DNA from: a candidate division FCPU426 bacterium
Lineage (GTDB): Bacteria > Oederibacteriota > Muellerivitia > Muellerivitales > Muellerivitaceae
Assembly (NCBI GenBank): GCA_030038835.1
Contig: JASHQZ010000139.1
Span: 1-35,481 of the forward strand
Reading direction: 5' to 3'
Length of the DNA: 35,481 nt
A program made the position numbers and the translations under genes. The notes under the pieces were generated by a model. It did no database searches. It was not told the origin of the DNA and saw only the letters and a list, made by a program, of their open reading frames with translations. Shown here piece by piece: positions 18,860 through 25,226 of the stretch. Within the stretch, counting starts at the first letter, position 1; each line of letters begins with the position of its first letter.

Positions 18860-18890
18860 TTGACATTAATTTCCATTTGTAATAAATTAC
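18860..18890 (+). promoter_or_regulatory. Candidate promoter with overlapping palindromic operator upstream of the Fur/PerR-like gene
   Basis: TTGACA (18860-18865), 17-bp spacer, TAAATT (18883-18888); GTAAT-AA-ATTAC inverted repeat at 18879-18890 overlaps the -10. Confidence 0.5.
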
Positions 18891-18928
18891 CATCTGTGAA
18901 AATCAGCGCCCAAAATTTAAGCGAGAAG

Positions 18929-19372
18929 ATGGGACACTTCGAGAAATTATGCCGGGAACAGGGCGTGCCCCTGACGGTCCAGCGCCGCGCTATCCTGGAA
19001 TCCCTAGCCCTGCGGGAGGACCACCCCACGGCCGACCAAGTCTTTGAGGACGTGGCCCGCCGGATCCCAGGCCTGTCCCGCACCACGGTTTACCGGGTGC
19101 TGGAAACCCTGGTGGACATGGGGGTCATCCATAAGGCCAGCCACCTAGGCTCGGCGGCCCGTTACGACCCCAATACCGAACGGCATCACCATTTGACCTG
19201 CCTTTCCTGTCACAAGGTGATTGACGTGGAGGAGGGACCCGTACAACGGGTGCAGTTGCCCAAGGCCCAGGCCAGGGGTTTTGAGATCCTGGATTATTCG
19301 GTGCATTTCAAGGGTTATTGCCCCGATTGCTTGAGGAAGGGAAGACGCGCCTCGGGGACCGCCCGCGCCTGA
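18929..19372 (+). CDS. Fur-family regulator, PerR-like
   Basis: PLTVQRRAILESL, LSRTTVYRVLETLVDMGVI winged helix; HHHLTCLSCHKV and CPDC zinc motifs; ATG 18929 or GTG 18896 possible. Confidence 0.88.
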   Translation: MGHFEKLCREQGVPLTVQRRAILESLALREDHPTADQVFEDVARRIPGLSRTTVYRVLETLVDMGVIHKASHLGSAARYDPNTERHHHLTCLSCHKVIDVEEGPVQRVQLPKAQARGFEILDYSVHFKGYCPDCLRKGRRASGTARA

Positions 19373-19438
19373 AATGAACTGGCTTATAGGACGGTCCCAC
19401 AAAAACCGATATGTTGTTGACGTCCCAGGGAGGAAGAG

Positions 19439-19531
19439 GTGAAACCCAACATCGGCATCAACGATTTCCTGGGGGGACTGATGTAACAGCACGAGAAAAA
19501 GGCTTGGATGTTGAGGGCCTTTTCAGCTTGA
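19439..19531 (+). pseudogene. dps-like remnant: N-terminus joined to C-terminus by a large internal deletion, with an in-frame stop
   Basis: SD-like GGAGGAAGAG then GTG: MKPNIGIN-DFLGGLM-stop-QHEKKAWMLRAFSA-stop in one frame; MKPNIGI and DFL.GLM.QHEK.AWMLRA resemble the two ends of Dps-family proteins. Confidence 0.7.
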
Positions 19532-19667
19532 AAAAGACGAACCGGTTTAACGGCCTTTTAACACTGGAATTTATCCAGGGAAGGGCTTGAACCGGGAAGT
19601 TGGGATTTGGATACTACTGCTCCTGCAAGAGCGGTGGAAAAGTTGAATTAAATAAGGAGGAAGCGCT

Positions 19668-20189
19668 ATGCCAGTTCAAGTGGGACAAAAGGCCCCGGAT
19701 TTCCAGGGCCAAGCGGTAATGCCAAACGGGGAATTCAAGGAAGTAAAGCTCTCCGACTTCAAGGGGAAGTGGGTGGTCTTGTTCTTCTATCCCTTGGACT
19801 TCACCTTCGTCTGCCCGACGGAGATCAAGGCCTTCAACGAGAAGTTCGACGAGTTCAAGAAAATGGGCGCCGAGATTATCACGGCCTCGACCGACAGCGT
19901 GTATAGCCACAAAGCCTGGCAGGAGAACGGATTGGGCAAGCTCAAGTTCGCCCACTTGGCGGACACAGCCCACCATATTTCCCGCGCCTACGGCGTTTTG
20001 ATCGAGGACAAGGGAATCGCCTTGCGCGGGACCTTCATCATCGATCCCGAGGGAAACTTGAAGCACGCCACCGTGAATGACACCGCGGTCGGGCGCAATG
20101 TGGAGGAAACCATCCGCACCTTGGCGGCCTTCGAGACCGGCAAGCTAACCGGCTGCGGCTGGACCCCGGGGCAGAAGACGCTCAATTGA
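19668..20189 (+). CDS. ahpC: 2-Cys peroxiredoxin (AhpC/Prx1 type)
   Basis: FFYPLDFTFVCPTEI peroxidatic motif; C-terminal GCGWTPGQKTL resolving Cys; RBS AAGGAGGAAG. Confidence 0.93.
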   Translation: MPVQVGQKAPDFQGQAVMPNGEFKEVKLSDFKGKWVVLFFYPLDFTFVCPTEIKAFNEKFDEFKKMGAEIITASTDSVYSHKAWQENGLGKLKFAHLADTAHHISRAYGVLIEDKGIALRGTFIIDPEGNLKHATVNDTAVGRNVEETIRTLAAFETGKLTGCGWTPGQKTLN

Positions 20190-24804: not shown

Positions 24805-24873
24805 GTCCTAGGCTTCGGAGGACACCCTATGTCTCCTTAAATCATGTGTTGTTTTAAGGAAGCGTAGGATGGC
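24805..24873 (+). repeat. Palindromic repeat copy B, adjacent to tRNA-Ser(GCT)
   Basis: GTCCTAGGCTTCGGAGGACACCC...CTCCTTAAA...TTTAAGGAAGCGTAGGATGGC, aligns along its length with copy A. Confidence 0.75.
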
Positions 24874-24962
24874 GGAGAGGGAGGGATTCGAACCCTCGAG
24901 AGGGCTTTTGACCCTCCAACGGTTTAGCAAACCGTCGCCTTAAGCCGCTCGGCCACCTCTCC
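24873..24962 (-). tRNA. tRNA-Ser(GCT)
   Basis: GGAGAGG/CCTCTCC acceptor, ACGGT-TTGCTAA-ACCGT anticodon arm, long variable arm, GGTTCGAATCC T-arm. Confidence 0.95.
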
Positions 24963-25112
24963 ACGGGCTTAAATGAAAAAGTTAGGTTGAAAACAGCAAA
25001 GGCAAAAGAAAACAGAAAGAACAAGCCCGGAAATCCCGCTCCCTTCGTTGAACCTTCGGGAGACCTCCTAGCTCTATTCGACTTCGGGGGCCGGCTCTTT
25101 TCCAAGTGGCCA

Positions 25113-25143
25113 GCCACCCGAAGCTCGAAGAGCGGAGGGTGGC
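25113..25143. repeat. Palindromic repeat copy C abutting the tRNA-Ser(TGA) 3' end
   Basis: GCCACCC-GAA-GCTC-GAA-GAGC-GGA-GGGTGGC; same architecture as copy A. Confidence 0.65.
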
Positions 25144-25226
25144 GGAGGGTGCAGGACTCGAACCTGCAAGGGGTTTCCCCCGGTGGATTTCAAGTCCACT
25201 GCCTTACCAATTAGGACTAACCCTCC
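25143..25226 (-). tRNA. tRNA-Ser(TGA)
   Basis: GGAGGGT/ACCCTCC acceptor, GTGGA-CTTGAAA-TCCAC anticodon arm, GGGG-AAA-CCCC variable arm, GCAGG-TTCGAGT-CCTGC T-arm. Confidence 0.95.

Follow-up and report, generated by a model that had tools for sequence, protein, structure and literature searches.

The literature on the PerR regulon names dps, mrgA, and ahpC, and PerR-regulon clusters that hold dps or mrgA together with ahpC occur in, for example, Bacillus subtilis. The locus described here lies in a window of 35,481 nucleotides (the whole stretch of DNA that was analyzed) and resembles these clusters in that a PerR-like regulator gene adjoins peroxide-defence genes. It differs from them in that dps appears to be dead, and PerR-type regulation is putative here. 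Dps itself is a miniferritin that stores iron and protects DNA (PF00210; solved relative, 8ff9). Between the regulator gene and ahpC, a short remnant was found whose two ends both resemble Dps and follow each other in the expected order and frame, at a locus syntenic with one that retains an intact dps. Unlike in Dps, ~80% of the protein is gone, only part of the last of the four helices is left, and the frame contains an internal stop codon. A literature search found nothing relevant on a dps pseudogene.

The remnant comprises 93 bases (window positions 19439-19531, plus strand), and its features are collected in Table 1. Its translation reads VKPNIGINDFLGGLM, stop, QHEKKAWMLRAFSA, stop (VKPNIGI-ND-FLGGLM up to the first stop), corresponding to Dps residues 1 to 8-9 and the final ~23 residues with an in-frame join. 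The original prediction had described a good Shine-Dalgarno sequence followed by an MKPNIGIN start joined directly to a Dps C terminus. The Shine-Dalgarno sequence is indeed present, and the KPNIGI-ND reading was correct, but the first codon is GTG, which specifies Met when used for initiation, and not ATG. Likewise, the two dps ends are fused in frame, but the join is not clean, because the junction bases AACGAT are common to the N- and C-terminal pieces. ORF callers see nothing at the remnant, and its discovery came from reading the raw sequence. No Rfam match was obtained at the locus, and a terminator-like fold 3' of the remnant was no better than those of shuffled sequences.

Table 1. Features of the dps remnant and its surroundings (window positions)
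Feature	Position	Strand	Evidence or remark
Fur-family PerR-like regulator gene, upstream, intact	18896-19372	+	Pfam FUR, 91.7 bits
Shine-Dalgarno sequence (GGAGG) of the former dps gene	19429-19433	+	Direct reading; 5 nt before GTG
dps N-terminal piece, (V/M)KPNIGI-ND, residues 1-9	19439-19465	+	
Deletion junction, GGCATCAACGAT	19454-19465	+	Hybrid of both break-point repeats
dps C-terminal piece, NDFLGGLM, stop, QHEKKAWMLRAFSA, stop, residues 135-157	19460-19531	+	
In-frame stop TAA	19484-19486	+	At residue 143, Glu near-invariant in homologues
Old dps stop TGA	19529-19531	+	
ahpC-type peroxiredoxin gene, downstream neighbour	19668-20189	+	Pfam AhpC-TSA, 146.9 bits
Two tRNA genes	24873-25226	-	

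To measure the similarity of the two ends to Dps, a position-specific scoring matrix (PSSM) was built with residues 1-8 joined to residues 136-156; its input was the 80 best intact homologues among GTDB genomes. The joined ends scored 75.6 bits at position 19439, and a score above zero was reached nowhere else in the window and in none of 30 dinucleotide-preserving shuffles. When scored alone, the C-terminal piece gave 60.4 bits. The N-terminal octapeptide alone gave 19.0 bits, barely over chance (shuffle maximum, 16.0 bits), and counts because it immediately precedes the C-terminal piece in the same frame and follows a ribosome-binding site. Furthermore, when the genome of the window was searched in six frames with an intact Dps from a relative (G008, described below), one match was obtained, at 19448-19525, with 69% identity and an E value of 7.3e-6; this match contains one TAA. 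No second Dps place was detected by this search in the genome, which is 84.7% complete. Against the PDB, phmmer with the 30-residue read-through returned two Dps matches, both weak (E 0.1-0.2), and the same read-through, being too short, had no Pfam match. Dps similarity thus exists on both sides of the junction, as had been predicted, and marks the segment as what is left of a Dps gene rather than as a functional Dps.

The distance between the two break points in the 80 homologues is 125-127 codons (~380 bp), in agreement with the claim that most of the ferritin-like core was deleted; the four-helix core and the inter-subunit ferroxidase residues are absent from the remnant. What is left also deviates at conserved sites. 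Residue 139 is Thr in 76 of the 80 homologues and Gly in the remnant; residue 143 is Glu, again in 76 of 80, and is replaced by the predicted nonsense mutation; and residue 148, Met in 70, is Lys. Gly, stop, and Lys occur at these respective positions in none of the 80 intact homologues. The stop together with T139G and M148K points to a loss of constraint after the deletion, and such disabling changes combined with lost constraint are what is expected of a pseudogene.

An intact counterpart was found in another candidate division FCPU426 bacterium (G008; DAHXKG010000003.1, locus L097), the only genome compared from the same order but outside the family. Its dps lies at exactly the matching position, in the same order between perR and ahpC, where the original prediction had proposed that an intact gene be sought in relatives. 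The encoded protein has 158 residues (MKPNIGIKD to TNDFLTGVMEKHEKMAWMLRAFAEA); the gene is preceded by an orthologous PerR-like regulator (~53% identity) and directly followed by ahpC (82% identity). The persistence of an intact dps at this position in a related bacterium makes the gene loss unusually clear.

The genes on either side conform to the peroxide-response setting that had been proposed. The best PDB match of the regulator is B. subtilis PerR (2fe3; E 3.8e-20), and the regulator has Asp where PerR has Asp104 (aligned as "kvid" versus "kivd" in 2fe3). NCBIfam PerR models ranked at the top, yet fell below their cut-offs, and we therefore name the regulator only "PerR-like." Its gene starts either at GTG 18896, which aligns with the ATG of relatives, or at ATG 18929. 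At 18860-18898, this gene has TTGACA and an inverted-repeat-like element, TTGTAATAAATTACCA, which is nearly invariant in five genomes and stops a few bases 5' of the aligned start codon. The element suggests autoregulation of the PerR-like gene, and the mRNA is perhaps leaderless. The region 5' of ahpC (19587-19637) carries a promoter-like TTGAAC-17-GATACT, directly followed by a perfect 9-bp hairpin (CTACTGCTC...GAGCGGTGG, z -3.6); a similar hairpin of variable length, with paired changes, was observed in four relatives (G001, G002, G005, and G006).

A likely origin of the deletion was indicated by intact homologues. In two of them (L105 and L138), the sequences at the break points, GGCATCAACGAC and GGCACGAACGAC, form a 12-base direct repeat with 10 of 12 bases identical. 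This near-perfect repeat at both break points makes slipped replication or illegitimate recombination between the repeat copies the likely route. In G008, the nearest intact orthologue, the repeat is less well developed (GGAATTAAGGAC and GGAACCAATGAT), so the proposed slippage rests on the more distant relatives; in an ancestral gene with the codon usage of the window, an almost identical repeat would have been present. We propose that the stretch from perR to ahpC formerly included dps, an arrangement retained by the relative of the same order, and that ~380 bp would have been lost between short imperfect direct repeats located around codon 8 (GGCAtcAACGAt) and codon 135 (GGCAcnAACGAt). Such a deletion would have eliminated the ferroxidase site along with helices A to C and one half of the final helix, and, judging from the repeat in intact relatives, would have fused both dps ends in frame. 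The unconstrained stump would then have gained its stop codon and missense changes. Ordinary bacterial pseudogenes formed by deletion between short direct repeats show the same combination of break points at a short repeat and subsequent nonsense and missense decay; the remnant differs from them in that the reading frame happens to be preserved across the deletion and both ends are still recognizable. We assign a probability of roughly 95% to the reading that the remnant is a non-functional dps pseudogene that arose between perR and ahpC through this repeat-mediated deletion and decayed later.

Two other explanations were weighed against a dps pseudogene. The organism might possess an intact dps whose two ends were joined by the assembler, by collapse or chimera formation, and the draft state of the assembly (360 contigs) and the short repeat at the junction would favor such an artifact. 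The junction is also known from one assembly: a search of all GTDB r220 genome contigs for the junction pattern gave no match, so that an independent copy was not found, and the 60-base junction (≤3 mismatches) was found among 19 relatives and the window's own genome in the latter only. However, the repeat has at most 12 bases, and usual assembly word lengths exceed this. Moreover, collapsing an intact gene would introduce neither a nonsense codon nor changes at two near-invariant sites, and 98%-complete sister genomes lack any dps. We consider an assembly artifact very improbable.

Slightly less probable still is that the 15-codon frame from GTG to TAA was kept, with the leftover ribosome-binding site, in a perR-ahpC transcript to act as a leader peptide with a regulatory role or to couple translation. 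The ribosome-binding site is indeed intact and the frame open, and any product of the remnant would be a peptide of 15 residues. By contrast, three relatives with short perR-ahpC spacers (G001, G005, and G006) have no Dps-like segment, and ahpC is preceded by a conserved promoter-like sequence of its own, 3' of the frame. A dps pseudogene remains our preferred reading, and as such it is well documented yet ordinary, the product of ordinary gene loss.

We also surveyed dps across the lineage. Two genomes of the genus, each 98% complete, gave no match to PF00210 (ferritin superfamily). As to the proposed check for another dps, none was detected with PF00210 in the window's own genome, a draft in which one could be missed because it is 84.7% complete. 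In the other members of the genus and family, the perR-ahpC locus is devoid of dps, and the spacers of six of them (G001, G002, G003, G005, G006, and G007) contain no Dps traces. In G001, of the same genus, and in G005 and G006, perR is followed by ahpC; in G003 and G007, no regulator gene lies directly upstream of ahpC. In the remaining genomes of the genus and family, the six-frame search with the G008 Dps produced no similar match apart from a distant Dps-like protein in G006; where family members retain a ferritin-like protein, it is of another type and encoded elsewhere in the genome. In the closest relative, G002, the perR contig (L081, G002:C3:1-500) and the ahpC contig (L080, G002:C69:1-280) both end between the two genes. 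The terminal sequence of the perR contig recurs at several places in the G002 genome. It has no Rfam match and may be a mobile element that occupies the position where dps once lay.

The remnant cleanly illustrates how a gene was lost in a candidate phylum about which little is known, and the genus manages its peroxide defence with no Dps or ferritin that could be detected. The loci without dps in the genus and family, together with the intact gene in G008, make repeated loss probable; the alternative that some lineages acquired dps later would be less simple. Such repeated loss is the most notable point of this analysis: judging from the genomes compared, dps has probably been lost repeatedly from the perR-dps-ahpC cluster in related lineages of this phylum, and the window probably preserves one of these losses half-way.
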